Positions 48,016 to 59,983 of a stretch of DNA of 64,000 nucleotides are shown in pieces. The stretch's first letter is position 1. Each line of letters begins with the position of its first letter. This DNA is from Bacteroidales bacterium (GTDB lineage: Bacteria > Bacteroidota > Bacteroidia > Bacteroidales > GCA-2748055): NCBI GenBank assembly GCA_021738565.1, contig JAIPBT010000004.1, positions 61,482 through 125,481 on the forward strand, written 5' to 3'. The notes below the pieces were generated by a model. That model was not told the origin of the DNA. It ran no database searches and was given only the letters and a program-made list of their open reading frames with translations. The translations under genes and the position numbers were made by a program.

Positions 48016-50859
48016 CTATTTTACTGAAGATGAAAATAACTTGATCAGCAATTGTTTCACGGTCTCTATTTTGACTGGTTTATCGATGTAATCATCCATG
48101 CCGGCAAGCACAGAATCTGCTTTTAATTCATCATTGCTTTCAGCAGACATTGCAATGATCGGGGTTTTTATCCCTTTTTTCCTTAAAATTTCAGTTGCTT
48201 CAAAACCATCCAGCTCTGGCATATAAAGGTCCATAAAAATTATATCATATTCTTTCCTGTCAGCCATTTCAACAGCCACTGCTCCGTTTTCTGCCAGTTC
48301 AATTTCATAACCGATGTTTTTGAAAATGGATTTGGCTACCTTCTGATTAATAATGTTGTCTTCTGCAAGCAATATCTTCAAATTCCCAGGAAGTGAATTA
48401 AGGATCGGGGCAATGGTTTTCTGGTCTTCGAGTCCGACAAATATTTCGCATAGAATATCATATAATTCTTTGCTTTCCAATGGTTCAACCAGGTAATGAT
48501 CTATATGTAATTTTCTTGAGATCTTGTAATTTCCAACCTGGTCATCATTAGAAACCATGATGATCGGAAATTTATCAGCCAGCCCCTTATCTTTCATTTT
48601 ATTGGCAACTGAAAAACCATCCATGTGGTTTTTATCTGCCATTACCAGTAACTGGTAGTCATTGTGCTTTGTTTTTATATGATGCATCAATGCATCCAAA
48701 GTACTCTCCTGGTAAATCCTGGCAATTATCTTAACTCCGAATTTTTTCAACCATTTGTAAACATTGCTCTTTGCCGGATCCGGCTCCTTGGTAATCATCA
48801 ATGCAGTTATCCGGTCAAGGGCTGTAATGCTGCTGTGATCAAATTCTTTTTCGATCTTTTCGGAAGAATAAACAGTGATGGTAAAAATAAATTTAGATCC
48901 CGGGGCATCATCAGAAATCGATATTCCGGAGGGGCTCTCCACCCTGATCTCTCCATTCATTAATTCTACCAATTGTTTGGAAATGGCAATCCCCAGGCCT
49001 GTCCCGCCGTATTTCCTGCTTATTGATCCCCTGGTTTGGGAATAATTATTGAATATGGTATTTATCTTGTCTGAAGGTATTCCGATTCCGGTATCTTCAA
49101 CCCGGAATAGCAACCGCAGCCTGTAATCATCAGTACTGAGGAGATCAGCTCCGATCACTATTTTTCCCTGTTCCGTAAATTTAATTGCATTGCTTACAAG
49201 ATTTGAAAATACCTGCCGTAGTCTAAACGGATCACCGATAAGTTTGTCAGGAATATTCTTGCTTATCGCCGTCTCAATTTTAAGCCCTTTTTCTGCGGCC
49301 AATCCATCAAAAAGACCAACAACAATGGAGATCTCTTCACTTAACCTGAACGGGATCTCTTCGAGCATCATTTTGCCTGCTTCAATTTTAGAAAAATCAA
49401 GAATATCATTGATAATGGTCATCAACAGGTCTGATGATTTTTTGATGAGCTGAACTTTTTCTTTCTCCTTTTCTGGCAATTCGGCCTGCAGCAGGTCCGA
49501 GACCATCCCTAAAATACCATTCATCGGAGTTCTGATCTCATGACTCATTGATGCAAGAAAATCTGATTTGGCATGATTTGCAGCCATCTCCTGTTTCCTT
49601 GACCGTTCAATGGTTGAAACATCAATCAATGCTATCAATCGCAATTCTTCTTCACCGATCCTCTTTACTTGTTCCATCCTGAATATTACTGTTTCAACCC
49701 CATCTTTATCATAGTACAAATAATCAATATTATTTCCCGATTCATTGTCATCATGGTTTAAAAATTTATTGGACAATAGAAATTGCCTTGTAAAATCCTT
49801 CCCCACCAGATTCTCAGTTTTTTCCACAAACAACATGCTTTGCGCAGTGCTGTTAATACTTCGGATTATGTTCTTATCGTCAAGTACCATGATCCCCACT
49901 GGAAAATTTTCTATGATCCTGCTTAAAAGATTTTCCGACGTCTGATGGATCTTTATTTTTCTATTCCTTCGTGAAATGACATAAAGCAGATAAGCGATCA
50001 ACCCCAGGTATATAAAAAATGAAGCCACTGCAACGCCAAGGTTCTTGTAGATAAAATATCTGTTGAATTCACTCTGGTTCGCTGAAAATATAATGCCAAG
50101 GCGCTTGTTAAAGATAGTAAGCGGATAATAAGAAGAGTGTACCGTGAATGTTTTGCCGGTTGTATCTGCTACTTCATGGCGGAGCGTACCCAAATTCAGC
50201 TCATCAATACTATCGGCCAGTGCATGAAGCGAACCAACCTGGGCAGGCTCAAAAAAATTGTTGGTCAATATTTTTGCATCAGAAGTAAGTACCCACTTCC
50301 AGGAAATGGTCCGATCCTCCGGGTAAAGAGAAAAAATATGGTCCGTAAATTTTTCAATATCAACTTCAACGATCAGGTTTCCACTGACTTTGTCGCCTTC
50401 AAAATATGGAAAGTAGTACAGGAATTTGTTCTCCTTCCTTTCCACTTTATCCCTTGGTGAAAGATTCTGCTGACGCTGCCTGGAAAATGTGTCGATCACA
50501 AAATTATCATCCTCATTCAAATAGAGTCCAAAATAATTTCTGTTGTCATCGTAAATTAAAATTTGTGTTATCAGATGCCTGTATTTTGAATAAAACAGTT
50601 CCAGGCTATGTTCCCTGTTTTCCAACTGCTCCCGGTCCTTGAATATCATTGAAAAATTATAATTGAACAACAGCTTGTTCAGATCATTTTCAAATGCATC
50701 AAGTTCCTCTTCCATTCTAATACCACACAAAACAGCCTGCTGCTCGATAGAGGAATTCAAAAAAGAAATGAACCGGCTGTTAACATTGAGAAATGAGAAA
50801 ACATTCAATGAAAGCAGGAATGCTACCAATGAAACAGAAAATAAAATCGTTTTCTTCAT
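48016..50859 (-). CDS. Hybrid histidine kinase with periplasmic sensor, PAS and receiver domains
   Basis: From the ATG at 50859 (MKKTILFSVSL) the protein has 947 aa. Order: transmembrane helix, periplasmic sensor of about 230 residues (Cache-like in length), second helix near 270, PAS near 310-410, HisKA with MSHEIRTPMNGILGM near 445, HATPase with NLVSNAIKFTEQ and GTGLGIAIS, a receiver-like domain without a normal Asp site (QLLVMADKNHMDGFS) and a final receiver with LLAEDNIINQK and the acceptor in IIFMDLYMPELDG near 870. No DNA-binding output, so it likely signals to another protein. Confidence 0.92.
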   Translation of the reverse strand: MKKTILFSVSLVAFLLSLNVFSFLNVNSRFISFLNSSIEQQAVLCGIRMEEELDAFENDLNKLLFNYNFSMIFKDREQLENREHSLELFYSKYRHLITQILIYDDNRNYFGLYLNEDDNFVIDTFSRQRQQNLSPRDKVERKENKFLYYFPYFEGDKVSGNLIVEVDIEKFTDHIFSLYPEDRTISWKWVLTSDAKILTNNFFEPAQVGSLHALADSIDELNLGTLRHEVADTTGKTFTVHSSYYPLTIFNKRLGIIFSANQSEFNRYFIYKNLGVAVASFFIYLGLIAYLLYVISRRNRKIKIHQTSENLLSRIIENFPVGIMVLDDKNIIRSINSTAQSMLFVEKTENLVGKDFTRQFLLSNKFLNHDDNESGNNIDYLYYDKDGVETVIFRMEQVKRIGEEELRLIALIDVSTIERSRKQEMAANHAKSDFLASMSHEIRTPMNGILGMVSDLLQAELPEKEKEKVQLIKKSSDLLMTIINDILDFSKIEAGKMMLEEIPFRLSEEISIVVGLFDGLAAEKGLKIETAISKNIPDKLIGDPFRLRQVFSNLVSNAIKFTEQGKIVIGADLLSTDDYRLRLLFRVEDTGIGIPSDKINTIFNNYSQTRGSISRKYGGTGLGIAISKQLVELMNGEIRVESPSGISISDDAPGSKFIFTITVYSSEKIEKEFDHSSITALDRITALMITKEPDPAKSNVYKWLKKFGVKIIARIYQESTLDALMHHIKTKHNDYQLLVMADKNHMDGFSVANKMKDKGLADKFPIIMVSNDDQVGNYKISRKLHIDHYLVEPLESKELYDILCEIFVGLEDQKTIAPILNSLPGNLKILLAEDNIINQKVAKSIFKNIGYEIELAENGAVAVEMADRKEYDIIFMDLYMPELDGFEATEILRKKGIKTPIIAMSAESNDELKADSVLAGMDDYIDKPVKIETVKQLLIKLFSSSVK

Positions 50860-50940
50860 TTGGGAAAAAATAAAAGACCCATGAGTCAAATACCTGTTCG
50901 TGAATTTTTAAAAATACATATTTCTGGTGATTTTCAAGAG

Positions 50941-52065: not shown

Positions 52066-53133
52066 TTATTCCTGATTAACAGGAGCTGTAAAATTCAACA
52101 GGCGCGACCTGAAATGAATGCCGGAGATGGTACCTTCTTCATCCTTGCTCGCCATCAATTTCGCATCGGTACCTGCAACCCTGTTCAGTTCTTTTAACCC
52201 GTTGCTCGCAATACTGTATAGCAATTCATCATCGTTTTCGATCAACCGGCTGATTCGTTGTATTTGTTGACGAGCCATCTCTTCCAGTGATAGTGATGAG
52301 ATGCTGACCGATGGGGGGTTGACCGGTTCCGGAACAATCCTGTCATATTTTACATTGACATTCTGAAACAAAGGCCTTTCGAGTCCCAGCCGGGCCAATG
52401 TATATGATTCTTCTTTCCTTCTGTCCAGTTCATCAGGAATTTCCTGTTGTTTTCTTTTTTCATTGATCTGCTTTGCCTTTTTTATATCCATGACGGGTAC
52501 AGGAGCCTTATTGTTCCTGATCACTTTCAATGTGGATGATTCCTGTACAGGTAATTTCCCCTTGATACTTTCCTTAGCAGCATTCAATTCCTTTTCCGGC
52601 TCAATGAATGCTGCCATTTCTGTTGGTTTTTCAGTATCCGGATTAATGAATACCACCATCAGAAAAACTGCAGCGGCAGCGGCAACAGGAACCAGGTACC
52701 TCAAATAAATGATTCCTTTTTTACTTTTTTTCAATGCTGATTTCCCGCCATATTTATATTTCCCGGGAATGAGAAATGCTCTTTTAAAAAGTTCAAATTT
52801 AGCAGCTTGTCGTGGATTCAAATCAATGTATGACTCAAATTCTATTTTCTGTACCTCTGTCAGATCTCCTTCAAGGTAAGCAATGCAAAACATTTCAAAA
52901 TTATCAGAAGTAAAGGGATCTTCACTGCCGGGGATTATTTTCCTTAGCTTTTCCTTTCCATCGAAACGGATATCTTCTGCCGGTAGTTTTTGAAGCCTGA
53001 ATGAATCCAGTTCCTTTGTCAGATCAGGATTGAACTTCAGAAATCTATGCAATATCTCCTCTTCTGAAGGAGAAAGCCTGCCCTCCAGGTGATCAAGAAA
53101 ATACTGTTCATAATTATTCCTGTTAATATTCAT
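52066..53133 (-). CDS. Putative anti-sigma factor-like membrane protein
   Basis: A 355-residue protein with a single transmembrane helix near 128-146 (LVPVAAAAAVFLMVVFI). The N-terminal cytoplasmic part has two repeats of a motif seen in Bacteroidota anti-sigma-like proteins: YEQYFLDHLEGRLSPSEEEIL and FCIAYLEGDLTEVQKIEFESYI, each followed by a PxLxxELD/PRQAAKFE-like segment. No zinc ligands. The rest is a low-complexity, probably periplasmic region. Its position just after an ECF sigma gene (14 bases) supports the role. The ATG at 53133 is preferred over the GTG. Confidence 0.75.
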   Translation of the reverse strand: MNINRNNYEQYFLDHLEGRLSPSEEEILHRFLKFNPDLTKELDSFRLQKLPAEDIRFDGKEKLRKIIPGSEDPFTSDNFEMFCIAYLEGDLTEVQKIEFESYIDLNPRQAAKFELFKRAFLIPGKYKYGGKSALKKSKKGIIYLRYLVPVAAAAAVFLMVVFINPDTEKPTEMAAFIEPEKELNAAKESIKGKLPVQESSTLKVIRNNKAPVPVMDIKKAKQINEKRKQQEIPDELDRRKEESYTLARLGLERPLFQNVNVKYDRIVPEPVNPPSVSISSLSLEEMARQQIQRISRLIENDDELLYSIASNGLKELNRVAGTDAKLMASKDEEGTISGIHFRSRLLNFTAPVNQE

Positions 53134-53147
53134 GGCTGTAAGCACTA

Positions 53148-53633
53148 TTATATTATGTTCTCTATCCTGACAAGGTAATTTTTCAGGTGCAACCTGCCCC
53201 TGTAAATGTAAACTTTCACCTGCGACTCCTTCAGTCCCGTTACCTCTCCTATTTCCTCATAGGAATATCCCTCATAATCCCTCAGTAATATTACAGTTCG
53301 TTGAATTTCAGGCAGTCTTGACAAAGCCTGTCCCAACAATTCGCCGATATCCGTGTACTGTTCTTCATGCTTGTAGCTGTACTCCTCTGAAATCCCGAAT
53401 TCAGCATGCCTGTTTTCCTTTTTCAACAAATCAAGCATGGTATGATATCCCGCTGTGAAAAGGTATGATTTCACCTTTTTGCTGTCTACATTTTCAATTT
53501 TCATCCAAAGTTTTTCAAATGTTTCCTGTACCACATCATTTGCAAGTTCCTCATTCCTTGAATTCTTCAGAATGAACCTGTACAAATTATCTGCATAGAG
53601 ATCAATCGTTTTGTTGTAATCTTCTACTGTCAT
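53148..53633 (-). CDS. ECF-type RNA polymerase sigma factor
   Basis: A 161-residue sigma-70 factor with region 2 (LYRFILKNSRNEELANDVVQETFEKLW, about 16-42) and region 4 (LPEIQRTVILLRDYEGYSYEEIGEVTGLKESQVKVYIYRGRL, about 110-150). It lies upstream of the anti-sigma-like gene and is divergent from the TetR gene. The upstream region has a GTAAC-N16-CGTC element, an ECF-type promoter suggesting autoregulation. Confidence 0.93.
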   Translation of the reverse strand: MTVEDYNKTIDLYADNLYRFILKNSRNEELANDVVQETFEKLWMKIENVDSKKVKSYLFTAGYHTMLDLLKKENRHAEFGISEEYSYKHEEQYTDIGELLGQALSRLPEIQRTVILLRDYEGYSYEEIGEVTGLKESQVKVYIYRGRLHLKNYLVRIENII

Positions 53634-53724: not shown

Positions 53725-53768
53725 TTGACAATGACATATCAATTATTTTATCTTTGAACGAACGTTTA
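53725..53768 (+). promoter_or_regulatory. Promoter and palindromic operator of the TetR operon
   Basis: TTG (53725-53727), a 21-base spacer and TATCTTTG (53749-53756) form a Bacteroidota promoter. The palindrome TGAACGAACGTTTA (53755-53768; core AACG-AA-CGTT) overlaps the end of the -7 box and the expected transcription start, a good position for repression by the TetR protein 10 bases downstream. Confidence 0.6.
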
Positions 53769-53777
53769 ATCATAAAC

Positions 53778-54368
53778 ATGCCGAGAACACCTGCACAATT
53801 CAATAAAATCAGGCAAAAAAGAAAGCTTCAGATCATGAAAACAGCGCTGGATCTTTTTGCAAAGGAAGGTTACGGTCATGTTACCATTGCCATGCTGGCA
53901 GATAATGCCGGGATATCCAGGGGCCTAATGTACAACTATTTCGAAAGCAAAGATCAATTGCTGAAGGAGCTTCTGAACAATGCCATTGAATACATCATGG
54001 AATCCTTTGATCCAAATCAAGATGGCATACTGACCCCGGATGAGTTTGAATTATTTATTCGAAAGACCTTTAAACTAATGCGCGATGAAGGAGATTTCTT
54101 CAGAAAATTTTTCAGCATGATTATACAACCGAATGTTAAGTTATTGCTCAGGGACAGCGCGATGAAAGACCTCATGATTGAATATTTTGAGGTCTTTACC
54201 GCATATTTCAAAAAGCAGGGATTTGAAGATCCGCCCCTTGAAGTATTCAATCTCTCAGTATTGATTGAAGGATTCGGCATCATGATGCTCTTCTATGACG
54301 ACATCAGTCAAATACCGGAATCTCTTTTCAAAAAATTTGAAGAAAGGATCATCGAAAAATACACATAA
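53778..54368 (+). CDS. TetR/AcrR family regulator
   Basis: About 196 aa from the ATG at 53778 (MPRTPAQFNKIRQKRK); the track's upstream TTG is in the promoter region. The helix-turn-helix is ALDLFAKEGYGHVTIAMLADNAGISRGLMYNYFESKDQLL (about 23-62). The C-terminal domain probably binds a hydrophobic ligand. An insertion reads FDPNQDGILTPDEFELF, which looks like an EF-hand loop (DPNQDGILTPDE), unusual for this family. It begins the operon that carries the LolA-like, FtsX and ABC genes, 6 bases before the next. Confidence 0.9.
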   Translation: MPRTPAQFNKIRQKRKLQIMKTALDLFAKEGYGHVTIAMLADNAGISRGLMYNYFESKDQLLKELLNNAIEYIMESFDPNQDGILTPDEFELFIRKTFKLMRDEGDFFRKFFSMIIQPNVKLLLRDSAMKDLMIEYFEVFTAYFKKQGFEDPPLEVFNLSVLIEGFGIMMLFYDDISQIPESLFKKFEERIIEKYT

Positions 54369-54374
54369 TTAATT

Positions 54375-55133
54375 ATGAAACACCATACTATAATAGCAGC
54401 ACTACTTGTATTTCTGGGGTCTGTTTCTGTTTCAGCCCAGGACTTAAAAGCAAAAGAGATCATTCAAAAAGCCGACGACAAATTCAACGGTGAAGAGTCG
54501 GGCATATCAGAAATGGCAATGACAATTGTCCGCCCAACCTGGGAAAGAACCGTCGAATTCAAGAGCTGGAGCAAAGGATCTGAAAATTCTCTGACGCTGA
54601 TCACGGCCCCGGCATCAGAAAAGGGACAGACTTTTTTAAAGAGAGGCAATGAAATGTGGAGCTGGAATCCATCCATCAGCCGCTTGATCAAACTGCCTCC
54701 TTCGATGATGTCCCAGGGATGGATGGGGTCTGACTATACCAATGATGATATTTTAAAGGAATCATCGATGGTAAACGATTACATGCATGAATTAACCGGA
54801 GTAGAATCCGTCGACGGGCGTGAATGCTATAAAATCAAGATGACAGCCAAAGAGAATGCAGCAGTAATATGGGGGCATCAGATAAGATGGATAGGCAAAG
54901 AGGATTTTCTTTTTATTAAGGCCGAATTGTATGATGAGGACGGATACCTCATACGTACTGAAACCGGGAAAGAGATTAAAATGATGGATGGTCGCCTGAT
55001 ACCAACCAGAATTGAATTGATCCCTGAGGAGGAAGAGGGGCATAAAACCATTATTCACATTAAAGACATTCAGTTCAATGCTGACATTCCGGATTCCTTC
55101 TTCTCCCAGCAAAACATGAAACGTATCCGCTGA
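54375..55133 (+). CDS. LolA-like outer membrane lipoprotein-sorting family protein
   Basis: A periplasmic protein of 252 aa with signal peptide MKHHTIIAALLVFLGSVSVSAQ. The mature part is a COG2834-type (LolA/LolB-like) half barrel: MAMTIVRPTWERTVEFKSWSKG, ITAPASEKGQTFLKRGNEMWSWNP and IKLPPSMMSQGWMGSDYTNDDIL are typical of this subgroup, which is not LolA itself but a relative found with RND or ABC exporters. Probably a carrier for a lipid or hydrophobic molecule across the periplasm. It precedes the permease genes in the same operon. Confidence 0.88.
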   Translation: MKHHTIIAALLVFLGSVSVSAQDLKAKEIIQKADDKFNGEESGISEMAMTIVRPTWERTVEFKSWSKGSENSLTLITAPASEKGQTFLKRGNEMWSWNPSISRLIKLPPSMMSQGWMGSDYTNDDILKESSMVNDYMHELTGVESVDGRECYKIKMTAKENAAVIWGHQIRWIGKEDFLFIKAELYDEDGYLIRTETGKEIKMMDGRLIPTRIELIPEEEEGHKTIIHIKDIQFNADIPDSFFSQQNMKRIR

Positions 55134-55186
55134 TTATCAAATATCGGAGATGAAAAGTGAAGCTATTACGGAATTAACATAAGATT

Positions 55187-56602
55187 ATGGAAAATTTAAA
55201 ACTGGCATGGAGAAATTTATGGCGCAACCGGCGCAGAACCATGATAACTGCTGCATCGGTGTTTTTTGCTGTTTTCTTTGCCCTGTTTATGAGGTCACTC
55301 CAACTGGGCTCTTACGATTACATGTACAAAAATGTAATCGAATCATATAGTGGATATATCCAACTTCAGCAAAAAGAATGGTGGGATGAAAAGACCATAG
55401 ACAATAGTTTCGGTTATAATCTTAAATTAGAAGAAAGATTGCTAAGTGATAATAATATTGTCAATACCATCCCACGTCTTGAATCTTTTGCCCTTGCATC
55501 AAGTGGTTCGAATACTAAGGGAGTCATGGTAATGGGCATTGATCCCGAAAAAGAGAGCCTTCTTTCGGATATCAGTAAAAAAGTGGCAAAATACCATCTT
55601 TCCGCTGATGCCATAGCAAAAATACTGGCAAGTAAACAGCTTCCTGAAAAGGCGACCGGAAATTTACCTTTGTTTGAAAACGTTTATTATGATGATGAAA
55701 ACAGGCTCCTGCAGGACCTGGGATTAAATGTCGAAAAAAAAGATTCCTATCTCCCTGTTCTTGCAAGGTACTCAAGAATTGAAGGTGAACAAATAAAAGT
55801 CGGTGAACCCGGTGTTTGGCTTGGACAGGAGCTTGCAAAATACCTGGAAGTGCAACCTGGAGACACCATGGTATTAATGGGTCAGGGTTACCATGGTACT
55901 ACAGCTGCAGGAAAATACCAGATAAAAGGCATCATCAAAATCCCGGCATCTGATATTAGTGGAAGGATCGTTTACCTTCCATATGATGTTGCACAGGAAT
56001 TGTTCCACGCCGAAAACAACCTTACATCACTTATTCTTCATGTCAGGGACAATTCCGACAAAGCCATCGCGGAAACATCACAATGGCTAAGCGAAAAAAT
56101 ACCTGATGAAACCCGAATTATCGACTGGAAGGAAATGAACGATGTAATTATTCAGCAAATGGAGGCAGACAATGTAAGTGGAATGTTCATGATCGGTATT
56201 CTATACATTGTCATAGCATTTGGAATTATAGGGACAGTGCTGATGATGACTGCTGAAAGAAGAAGAGAATTCGGAGTTCTGGTGGCGATCGGTATGCAAA
56301 AAAAGAAACTGGCATCGATCGTTGGTTATGAAATGATGATGATAGGATTACTGGGGGTAATGGCCGGTATAATCATCAGCATACCAATTATCCTATATGG
56401 AGTGAATCACCCCATAGTTTTTAAAGGCGAACTGGCCCATATGATGGAAGAATATGATTTCGAACCCAAGCTGGTTTTTGAAACTGTCAGCTATTATTAT
56501 CTCTGGCAGGCATTTGTAGTGGCCCTAATGGTACTTGTTTCCCTGATCCATCCGGTTCGAAAAATCCTTAGATTAAAAGTAGTAAACGCTTTAAGAGCAT
56601 AA
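55187..56602 (+). CDS. FtsX/LolE-type ABC permease (first of pair)
   Basis: A 471-residue permease with the 4-helix LolC/E layout: an N-terminal helix (MITAASVFFAVFFALFMRSL), a large periplasmic domain (about 40-335) and three C-terminal helices, beginning with MFMIGILYIVIAFGIIGTVLMMTAERRREFGVLVAIG. It pairs with the next gene, 13 bases downstream, probably as a heterodimer driven by the ABC ATPase of the operon. Confidence 0.9.
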   Translation: MENLKLAWRNLWRNRRRTMITAASVFFAVFFALFMRSLQLGSYDYMYKNVIESYSGYIQLQQKEWWDEKTIDNSFGYNLKLEERLLSDNNIVNTIPRLESFALASSGSNTKGVMVMGIDPEKESLLSDISKKVAKYHLSADAIAKILASKQLPEKATGNLPLFENVYYDDENRLLQDLGLNVEKKDSYLPVLARYSRIEGEQIKVGEPGVWLGQELAKYLEVQPGDTMVLMGQGYHGTTAAGKYQIKGIIKIPASDISGRIVYLPYDVAQELFHAENNLTSLILHVRDNSDKAIAETSQWLSEKIPDETRIIDWKEMNDVIIQQMEADNVSGMFMIGILYIVIAFGIIGTVLMMTAERRREFGVLVAIGMQKKKLASIVGYEMMMIGLLGVMAGIIISIPIILYGVNHPIVFKGELAHMMEEYDFEPKLVFETVSYYYLWQAFVVALMVLVSLIHPVRKILRLKVVNALRA

Positions 56603-56615
56603 AAATATATAAGAC

Positions 56616-58043
56616 ATGATACTATTGACAGCCTGGAAAAATGTTTGGCGCAACAGGATGCGAAGCCTCGTGGTAATAGCCTCTGTAACCATTGGAATTT
56701 TCGCCGGGATATTTGCTGTCGGACTTATGAATGGCACAATGGAACAGCGTGTTGATGCTGCGCTCAATCAGGAGATCTCCCATGTACATATCAACAAACA
56801 AAATTTCAAAGACAATTATGACATTCAGCTGACATTCAGAAATTCAAGGGATATCAATGAACGAATTAGCAGCATCCCGGGAGTTGAAGCCATCGCCAAC
56901 CGTGTTGTAATCAATGCCATTGCAAATACTGCCGCCAAAAGTACCGGGGTCCAGGTTGCAGGAGTAAATCCGGAGCAGGAAAAAAAGGTTTTTAACCTTC
57001 ATGAAAAGATGATCCCGGGTACAGGTTCCTATTTTGATAAAAAGACACGCTACAACCAGGCATTTATCGGTGAAGATCTCGCAAAGGAATTGAACATCAT
57101 CAGGTACCGCATAGAATCAGCTACCATTGACAGCCTTTCTGAAAGGGGAGTCCCACCTGCCATTCTTGAAAAATTGAAACCTTTTATCGGTAGGCGATTC
57201 CCCGGTCAGAAGGCTTTTTCACGGGAAATGAAAAAAATCCTCTCAGGCAGAGAAATCACCGAATTTGGTCAGATTATACTTGAAGAGGCATGGTCCTTTC
57301 GTGAAAGATCAAAATTAACACTGACTTTTATTAATAAGAATAACATCCAAACGGGAGGCATGTTTCGCATCTGTGGCATCTACGATGTAAAGAACAGCAT
57401 TTTTGAAAAATCCCAGATTTTTGTATTGAATTCTGATTTAAAGCGACTTACAGGGATAGAAAATGACGAATTTCACCTGGCTGTTGTCAAATTATCAAAC
57501 AGGAACAGGACCAACGAAATAACAGAACTGATAGCCTCTGCATTTCCCGACTTCGAAGTAAAGAACTGGAAAGAAATTGCAATCGACCTGGCAATGATGA
57601 CGGGTATGATTGAAAAATTCAATGCAGTGTTTATAATCATTATTCTGGCAGCCCTTTCATTTGGAATTGTGAATACCATGCTGATGGTGGTGCTTGAAAG
57701 AACGAAAGAACTGGGTATGCTCACTGCCATTGGGATGAACAGAAAGAAAGTTTTTACAATGATTATGGCAGAATCCGTATTTCTCTCTCTGGTTGGAGGA
57801 GTTGCCGGCATGATCATCAGCAAACTGATTCTGGCTCTAACCAGGAACAAGGGGATCAATATTGCAAGCGCTGCTGAGGGTTTTGAGGCGATGGGGTTTT
57901 CATCACATATTTACCCCACAATCTCAAATACCTTTTTTGTTACTGTTACCCTGCTGATCATAATTACTGGCATACTTTCATCAATTTATCCTGCAATAAA
58001 AGCACTCAAACTGGATCCGGCAGAGGCACTCAGAACCGAATAA
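56616..58043 (+). CDS. FtsX/LolE-type ABC permease (second of pair)
   Basis: A 475-residue homologue of the preceding permease. N-terminal WKNVWRNRMRSLVVIASVTIGIFAGIFAVGLMNG is followed by a periplasmic domain and the C-terminal helices with VNTMLMVVLERTKELGMLTAIGMNRKKVF. Both genes open with the same WRN-R pattern, suggesting an old duplication. The ATPase gene begins 23 bases downstream. Confidence 0.9.
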   Translation: MILLTAWKNVWRNRMRSLVVIASVTIGIFAGIFAVGLMNGTMEQRVDAALNQEISHVHINKQNFKDNYDIQLTFRNSRDINERISSIPGVEAIANRVVINAIANTAAKSTGVQVAGVNPEQEKKVFNLHEKMIPGTGSYFDKKTRYNQAFIGEDLAKELNIIRYRIESATIDSLSERGVPPAILEKLKPFIGRRFPGQKAFSREMKKILSGREITEFGQIILEEAWSFRERSKLTLTFINKNNIQTGGMFRICGIYDVKNSIFEKSQIFVLNSDLKRLTGIENDEFHLAVVKLSNRNRTNEITELIASAFPDFEVKNWKEIAIDLAMMTGMIEKFNAVFIIIILAALSFGIVNTMLMVVLERTKELGMLTAIGMNRKKVFTMIMAESVFLSLVGGVAGMIISKLILALTRNKGINIASAAEGFEAMGFSSHIYPTISNTFFVTVTLLIIITGILSSIYPAIKALKLDPAEALRTE

Positions 58044-58066
58044 ATAAAAATCAAAAAATATACATC

Positions 58067-58756
58067 ATGAAAGTCCTGGAATTAAAAAACGCACATAAGA
58101 TCTATAACAGTTCAGAGATTCAGGTTCATGCAGTAAACGGGGTGGACCTGACTTTCGAGGAAGGAGAATTTGCCGCTATAGTAGGACCGTCAGGCTCAGG
58201 CAAAACTACCTTACTGAATATGATTGGAGGACTGGATCATCCGACGAAAGGTCTAATACTGGTTGAAAACACCGATCTGTCCAAATTAAAACCTTCAAAG
58301 CTGATCGATTTCAGAATGCGGAACATCGGGTTCGTTTTTCAATCATATAACCTCATTCCTGTACTGACCGCTGCTGAAAATGTGGAATTCATTATGAATC
58401 TTCAGAAAAAACCAAAGAAAGAGAGGCAAAAGCGTACAGAAGACTTGCTCAATGCTGTGGGCCTTGGAGACAGGATCAACAGCAGACCTTCAAAATTATC
58501 CGGAGGTCAGCAGCAGAGAGTTGCCGTTGCAAGGGCACTGGCATCCAAGCCTAAATTCATCCTGGCAGATGAACCAACTGCCAACCTCGACTCAAAATCT
58601 ACCGAGACTTTGCTTCAAATTATGGAGGAACTGAACAGGGAGGAAAAAATCACTTTTATCTTTTCAACCCATGATGCAAGGGTGGTCAAAAGAGCAAGGA
58701 GGGTGGTCACACTTGAAGATGGAAAAATCCTGAGCGACGAAATCAGCAAAAATTAA
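58067..58756 (+). CDS. LolD/MacB-type ABC transporter ATPase
   Basis: A 229-residue ATPase with Walker A GPSGSGKTTLLN near 43, Q loop VFQSYNLIPVLTA near 90, signature LSGGQQQRVAVARALA near 143, Walker B FILADEPTANLD near 163 and the H-loop STHDARV near 197. The sequence is of the LolD/MacB subfamily that drives FtsX-like mechanotransmission rather than substrate passage through the membrane. Partner of the two permeases upstream. Confidence 0.95.
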   Translation: MKVLELKNAHKIYNSSEIQVHAVNGVDLTFEEGEFAAIVGPSGSGKTTLLNMIGGLDHPTKGLILVENTDLSKLKPSKLIDFRMRNIGFVFQSYNLIPVLTAAENVEFIMNLQKKPKKERQKRTEDLLNAVGLGDRINSRPSKLSGGQQQRVAVARALASKPKFILADEPTANLDSKSTETLLQIMEELNREEKITFIFSTHDARVVKRARRVVTLEDGKILSDEISKN

Positions 58757-58804
58757 AGAATGTTTTGTGCATGATTATAAACGGGAAATAACAATGCACC
58801 ATAT

Positions 58805-59983
58805 ATGATCTCAAAAAGAACATGTATTCTTTTCGTTTGTACAGGAATCTCATTGTTGCCCCTGAAAAGCCAATCTTTCGTTAGTATTAACGGTTACATA
58901 AACGACATGCAGTCTGTTTACCACGTGGACCAAATTGGGTGGTTGTGGGAAAACCAGGTTCATAACAGACTAAATATCAATGTATATCCTGCTCTGTGGC
59001 TGAATCTATCTTTCCAGGGAAGAACAAGGTTCCAGCAAAACAATCTGTATGGTCAATTCCCCGGATACACAAATAACCTGGGATTGGATCCGGGCTGGTT
59101 TGATCTGACCTGGAGTTTTGACGATGCTTATAACAACAATGCAGGATATATATTTACTACCAGTCTTGACCGGGCATATGCAGAATTCAGCTTTGGAGAT
59201 TTTGTCGGCACCGTTGGGAGACAGCGCATCAACTGGGGACAGACATTCGTGTGGAATCCAAATGACATCTTCAATTCCTATTCATATTTTGATGTTGATT
59301 ACCCTGAAAGACCAGGCAGTGATGCAATAAGACTTCAATATTATACAGGCATGGCCTCAAACATTGAATTAGCGGTAAAACTGGATAGTTCAGGCAGTCT
59401 GACTACAGCAGGTTATTTCCGTTTCAATACCCGGGGCTATGACTTTCAATTTATCGGAGGTGTTTTATCAGCGGAAGATCTTGTGCTGGGAGCAGGATGG
59501 AGTGGTAATATACAAAATGTCTCTTTCAGGGGAGAAACAACCTATTTCAGAGATCTTGAAAATTTTGCCGACACTGCAGGAAATTTCATGGTCTCTGTTG
59601 GTTTGGATTATACCTTCTCCAATTCTTTGTGGCTCCGTGGAGAGTTATTGTATTCAGGGTTTGCAGATAAATTTGATATTTATTCACTAACACATATACT
59701 GGCTGCAGACATGAATGTTAAGAACCTGGGGTTCACAGAGTGGTCGTTGTTTTCAAGTATCTCATACCCGGTCAACCCTCTTTTCAACATTTCAGTTGCC
59801 GGTATCTATTATCCTGAATGGAAAGGTTTTTACCTGGGTCCCTCTTTCGATTATTCGCTGGCAAATAACCTTTCAGCTTCACTAATATTTCAGGGATTTT
59901 CTGCAAAACTGGAAGACCCCTTAGGCAATACAGCTCGTGAAAATACATTTATCGGATATGCCAGGATAAAGTGGAGTTTCTGA
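58805..59983 (+). CDS. Outer membrane beta-barrel protein of the ABC operon
   Basis: A 392-residue protein with a signal peptide (CILFVCTGISLLPLKSQS) and a beta-barrel pattern of alternating aromatic residues throughout, ending with GYARIKWSF (terminal Phe). The segment VGTVGRQRINWGQTFVWNPNDIFN resembles the core motif of DUF1302/porin-like proteins that accompany LolA-like carriers elsewhere. Probably an outer membrane receiver or pore for the operon's cargo. It follows the ATPase by 48 bases. Confidence 0.82.
   Translation: MISKRTCILFVCTGISLLPLKSQSFVSINGYINDMQSVYHVDQIGWLWENQVHNRLNINVYPALWLNLSFQGRTRFQQNNLYGQFPGYTNNLGLDPGWFDLTWSFDDAYNNNAGYIFTTSLDRAYAEFSFGDFVGTVGRQRINWGQTFVWNPNDIFNSYSYFDVDYPERPGSDAIRLQYYTGMASNIELAVKLDSSGSLTTAGYFRFNTRGYDFQFIGGVLSAEDLVLGAGWSGNIQNVSFRGETTYFRDLENFADTAGNFMVSVGLDYTFSNSLWLRGELLYSGFADKFDIYSLTHILAADMNVKNLGFTEWSLFSSISYPVNPLFNISVAGIYYPEWKGFYLGPSFDYSLANNLSASLIFQGFSAKLEDPLGNTARENTFIGYARIKWSF

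Follow-up and report, generated by a model that had tools for sequence, protein, structure and literature searches.

The stretch of DNA analysed here (the window, 64,000 nucleotides) carries six open reading frames on the forward strand at positions 53778-59983. In order, they encode a TetR regulator, a LolA-like carrier, two permeases, an ATPase and a barrel, and the gaps between them are 6, 53, 13, 23 and 48 bases. An earlier note on this DNA had described six genes in a row, 6 to 53 bases apart, and each was found in its place and on its strand. The features are as follows.

53725-53756, forward strand: Bacteroidota-type promoter read from the sequence, with -33 TTG at 53725-53727, 21 bases, and -7 TATCTTTG at 53749-53756
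53753-53772, no strand assigned: predicted TetR operator TTTGAACGAACGTTTAATCA, a degenerate copy of TTTGACYGAMCGTTCAGTCA, which overlaps the -7 box (75/76 relatives)
53778-54368, forward strand: TetR-family regulator, 196 aa (PF00440, 8.4e-15; AF2 pLDDT 88; PDB matches are TetR proteins)
54009-54044, forward strand: EF-hand-type loop, TetR residues 78-89, DPNQDGILTPDE (Pfam, signature, model)
54375-55133, forward strand: LolA-like periplasmic carrier, 252 aa (PF17131, 5.6e-56; solved relatives 3buu, 9tp6, 4z48 and 3bk5)
55187-56602, forward strand: FtsX/MacB-type permease 1, 471 aa (PF02687, PF12704; LolF/LolC/MacB structures matched by sequence)
56616-58043, forward strand: FtsX/MacB-type permease 2, 475 aa (PF02687, PF12704)
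58067-58756, forward strand: LolD/MacB-type ATPase, 229 aa (PF00005; TIGR02211 at 232.9 bits, below the cut-off of 307.75)
58805-59983, forward strand: outer-membrane beta-barrel, 392 aa, a remote DUF1302 relative (AF2 pLDDT 79; porin-like Foldseek matches; hhalign)

We place the TetR start codon at the ATG at 53778 because the upstream TTG (53754) falls within the promoter/operator. The regulator has the TetR_N domain, the TetR fold and a palindromic operator at its own promoter. FtsX permeases with a MacB-like periplasmic core and the ATPase (PF02687, PF12704, PF00005) make the transporter a MacB/Lol-type (Type VII) ABC system, and the Walker A/B, LSGGQ and H-loop motifs of the ATPase are intact (GPSGSGKTT, LSGGQ, ILADEPTA, STHD). 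The sequence shows a Sec-type signal peptide without a lipobox on the carrier, and an N-terminal signal peptide and a C-terminal Phe on the barrel. Next after the operon, at distances of 20 and 23 bases, come dtd and deoC, which may be co-transcribed with it; we rejected them as members of the system, as they lie downstream only in the closest relatives and outside the conserved unit.

The barrel had been called DUF1302-like. A kinship is seen in profile-profile comparison only: it runs through the RND-linked barrel family of the same genome (hhalign 98.4%, E 4.6e-15), a member of which passes PF06980. The Pfam search gave no direct match for the barrel, DUF1302 included. Homology to the barrel of a second ABC operon on contig C80 is weaker (hhalign 92%). 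Foldseek with the barrel model, which is of middling confidence and falls below pLDDT 50 in the conserved stretch 152-166, returned generic porin-like matches with poor rmsd and no specific family.

The predicted operator overlaps the -7 box, as the earlier note had claimed for a palindrome at the single promoter. Of 76 orthologous TetR genes, 75 have the palindrome TANNTTTGACYGAMCGTTCAGTCA on their 5' side; TTTG is common to it and the -7 box, and TANNTTTG beside the operator is kept in nearly all relatives. Sites were accepted at 17/20 or more against the family consensus, a score at which the window palindrome itself stands and against which random stretches mostly reach 10-13. When the genome was searched with the window palindrome, one other site only was found, with 3 mismatches. 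This footprint is strong evidence for predicted local TetR autoregulation and supports the claim that the operon is TetR-controlled. Scans for sigma-70-style promoters and terminators found nothing above chance.

Gene order was scored by profile HMMs in 24 fetched neighbourhoods and at least 80 named loci, which span Bacteroidales, Prolixibacteraceae, Marinilabiliaceae, Saprospiraceae, Cyclobacteriaceae, Roseithermus, Chlorobiota and one Delongbacteria bin. Counting paralogues, 44 of 61 genomes have a relative of the LolA-like protein. Among the loci listed, 60 distinct ones come with sufficient flanking sequence; of these, 46 have the full order TetR-LolA-permease 1-permease 2-ATPase-barrel, a further nine keep the five transport genes and lack only a recognised TetR, and five are shorter. 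The order is more than inherited synteny because the flanks vary between families while the six-gene unit persists. Thus, the neighbourhood is conserved as the earlier note had expected, and the operon does have an outer-membrane barrel of its own, as it had stated. One locus carries two permease pairs with a single ATPase and a single LolA-like gene (L067:1-6293).

The operon resembles the Lol systems (LolCDE/LolDF-LolA) in being a Type VII ABC system with FtsX-type permeases, a LolD-like ATPase and a carrier of LolA fold. It differs from them in its carrier family, its permease loop, its own barrel and its TetR control, and the genome holds separate Lol candidates. The carrier matches PF17131 only, not the LolA families PF03548/PF16584, and PF17131 genes number three in the genome. 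Elsewhere in the genome a weak LolA_2-type candidate, below the curated cut-off, follows a 784-residue protein, and two better lolCE matches (LolC/E-type permease candidates) lie on other contigs. The operon permeases scored 101 and 124 bits against the lolCE equivalog (cut-off 362) and the ATPase 233 against 308 bits for LolD, but these cut-offs discriminate weakly here because the genome's own LolC/E candidates miss them too. As no protein of the genome passes either one, its true Lol genes are named as candidates.

At what we take to be the position of the LolC Hook, the operon permease loop is about 9 residues shorter than that of E. coli LolC, so that the Hook length is absent; the permease on contig C23 has it. 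Docking of the carrier on permease 1 must therefore differ from that of LolA on LolC. Where the Hook would be, permease 1 (55187-56602) has the conserved loop QGYHG..AAGKY, at which the carrier may dock. In the ATPase tree, the 21 sequences of this operon and the 7 of the paralogous ABC operon each form one clade, and the two clades group together; E. coli LolD and the other candidates of the genome fall elsewhere. Long branches lie outside these clades, so we rely only on the joining of the two. We rejected the operon as the cell's only Lol system in view of the separate LolA_2 and LolC/E candidates and its own ATPase clade. The earlier view that it is distinct from the essential Lol system is borne out, and a grouping with a sole Lol system, which would have spoken against it, was not seen.

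The same genome carries two related versions. The operon on contig C80 reads TetR-barrel-ATPase-permease-permease-LolA_like, an order conserved in relatives, and the RND locus on contig C76 (L005) encodes a barrel (PF06980, DUF1302), an MMPL-type RND, a LolA_like protein (also PF07044, DUF1329) and a DUF2141 protein. Thus, the kit of carrier and barrel combines with either an ABC or an RND engine. Proteins of about 1020-1090 aa that look like fusions of MMPL/RND and LolA-like parts, with a DUF1302-type barrel adjoining, were also seen in relatives (L086:3775-7032, L087:3947-7018). The characterised cousin of the RND type is AmeABCD of Castellaniella defragrans, with an HAE3 RND, a DUF1302 barrel and a DUF1329/LolA-superfamily protein (PMC6394551). 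Like the operon, it joins a LolA-superfamily carrier and a DUF1302-related barrel to an energised inner-membrane transporter, and its substrate is hydrophobic. However, Ame is RND-powered and sits in a monoterpene metabolism island, whereas the window operon is of ABC type without an HAE3-type RND; the nearer relative of Ame in this genome is the RND-type locus. In Flavobacterium johnsoniae, LolA2/LolB2 of the flexirubin locus provide another Bacteroidota LolA-type protein thought to be specialised for hydrophobic cargo (PMC11885536), but that protein sits with a LolB in a pigment biosynthesis locus, and the window operon has no linked biosynthesis.

The regulator shares its fold, size and palindromic operator with TetR proteins of the FadR, MtrR and RutR type, its closest structural matches, but differs from them in the EF-hand-type loop. 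In the AF2 model the loop sits exactly between helices 4 and 5 (residues 58-74 and 87-103), and the second helix begins near loop position 10, as in EF-hands; a 12-residue loop with the chelating pattern is thus held between two helices. Against Pfam EF-hand_1, 17 of 19 orthologues give a match, at best 3.6e-6; the window TetR reaches 1.1e-4, under the gathering score. The EF-hand signature, presumably that of PROSITE PS00018, is present in 51 of 77 orthologues, in 51/51 exactly 26 residues after a YNYF-type motif; it occurred in 1 of 1620 other ORFs, 0 of 8 other sister-locus TetRs and 4 of 7700 shuffles. Across the unselected 77 orthologues, D1, N/D3, D5, G6, L/I8, T/S9 and E12 dominate, and positions 2, 4, 7, 10 and 11 vary more. 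Where solved TetR proteins were matched by profile, the alignments cross the loop region almost without change of length, which indicates that the loop stands in for the usual link from helix 4 to helix 5, where the DNA-binding domain is hinged. We found no report of an EF-hand-type loop at this hinge in the literature searched.

The loop suggests that regulation may be metal-sensitive. Saprospiraceae and some others have the operon and lack the loop, so the loop is not essential. In another view, which concerns the regulator only and which we hold to be less probable than not, the loop would merely cap a helix as a simple turn, with no metal bound. That members without the loop retain operator and operon would fit such a turn, as would the sub-threshold Pfam scores of the window protein. 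Against it, conservation falls on the chelating positions 1, 3, 5, 9 and 12, on G6 and on the hydrophobic position 8, and the place of the loop is fixed in 51/51 proteins. As a tentative proposal, these regulators could form a class of Bacteroidota TetR proteins with a working EF-hand hinge, in which cytoplasmic Ca2+, for example upon envelope damage, would gate a pathway reserved for bringing lipid to the outer membrane. If true, calcium would act on transcription in a direct and simple way, through an EF-hand within a one-component repressor; such links have seldom been documented for bacteria.

Based on these results, we propose that the operon encodes a TetR-autoregulated MacB/Lol-type ABC route that exports a hydrophobic, lipid-like molecule to the outer membrane, a reading we hold to be reasonably probable. 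The permeases and ATPase would form a complex at the inner membrane, the LolA-like protein would ferry the cargo through the periplasm inside its hydrophobic cavity, and the DUF1302-related barrel would admit it into or through the outer membrane. TetR bound to the palindrome over the -7 box would repress the operon until a ligand frees it from the operator; this ligand is probably the cargo itself or a related molecule. The EF-hand-type loop, placed at the hinge, is a probable binding site for Ca2+ (or Mg2+) and would tune DNA binding. The route probably works like Lol and Ame, and on the features tested it is a member of neither. The families are ordinary and their combination is not: a regulated ABC/LolA-like/barrel route is joined to an unexpected EF-hand-type regulator. 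This loop, the paralogous ABC and RND versions and the missing LolC-type Hook go beyond what the earlier note contained. Lipid movement to the outer membrane is poorly known in Bacteroidota.

Evidence on the cargo comes from accessory genes. A gene of the PEMT family (phospholipid methyltransferase, PF04191) lies 15-109 bases 3' of the barrel in nine loci (as two frames in L100), and a CAP-domain gene (PF00188) lies between ATPase and barrel in nine loci. PEMT-type enzymes are lipid-modifying, and binding of sterols or fatty acids is known for some CAP proteins of eukaryotes. These genes give circumstantial support to a putative lipid-like cargo; of the earlier claim that a hydrophobic molecule is moved between membranes, it is the nature of the molecule that has gained this support. 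No recurring biosynthetic genes were seen beside the operon in the relatives' neighbourhoods compared, so the context does not give the cargo away.

The same lack of linked biosynthetic genes would suit inducible efflux of toxic hydrophobes (terpene-, bile- or solvent-like), in the manner of AmeABCD but powered by ATP, with TetR sensing the toxicant. TetR control and the RND/DUF1302/LolA cousin in the same genome are consistent with this, and deletion of AmeABCD lowers monoterpene tolerance (PMC6394551). The accessory genes suggest lipid handling instead, and, unlike ordinary efflux pumps, the operon has no membrane fusion protein or TolC. We therefore regard efflux of toxicants as rather doubtful.

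We think it improbable that the operon is an additional Lol system specialised for some of the lipoproteins or for those of the cell surface, with the barrel as exit. The LolD-like ATPase and the lolCE matches could be read in this way, and the Aat system, a composite of Lol-like and secretion parts, is a precedent (PMC7943197). However, the carrier family, the permeases without a Hook-length loop and the missed equivalog cut-offs all argue against it, and the unit has no conserved lipoprotein gene. Uptake, in which the barrel admits a hydrophobic nutrient and the carrier brings it to the inner membrane, is more improbable still, as catabolic genes are absent nearby and MacB-type transporters, which work on the periplasmic side, and their Lol-type relatives are known to act outward (PMC5985334). 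It draws on a further cousin of the RND type, a LolA-fused MMPL protein of Thalassolituus that rises together with a neighbouring porin-like protein during growth on long-chain alkanes and was read as uptake-related (PMC6304351), a case that counts against treating the export direction proposed here as settled.

NCBIfam names for the TetR regulator all matched far below cut-off. Beside the operon, an ECF sigma factor and a putative anti-sigma protein are encoded divergently on the reverse strand (52066-53633). Their orthologues are linked in about 38 of 104 loci, mostly upstream and divergent; in L110 and L112 they come after the operon, in the same orientation. This linkage hints at a functional tie with the operon. 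A single-domain response regulator (PF00072), absent from the window, lies directly 3' of the barrel in L053, L055, L056, L057, L058, L064, L082, L096 and L106. On the reverse strand of the window (48016-50889), a hybrid histidine kinase with PAS, HisKA, HATPase and receiver domains adjoins rsgA, and in several relatives a receiver-bearing gene of about 950 aa adjoins rsgA as well.
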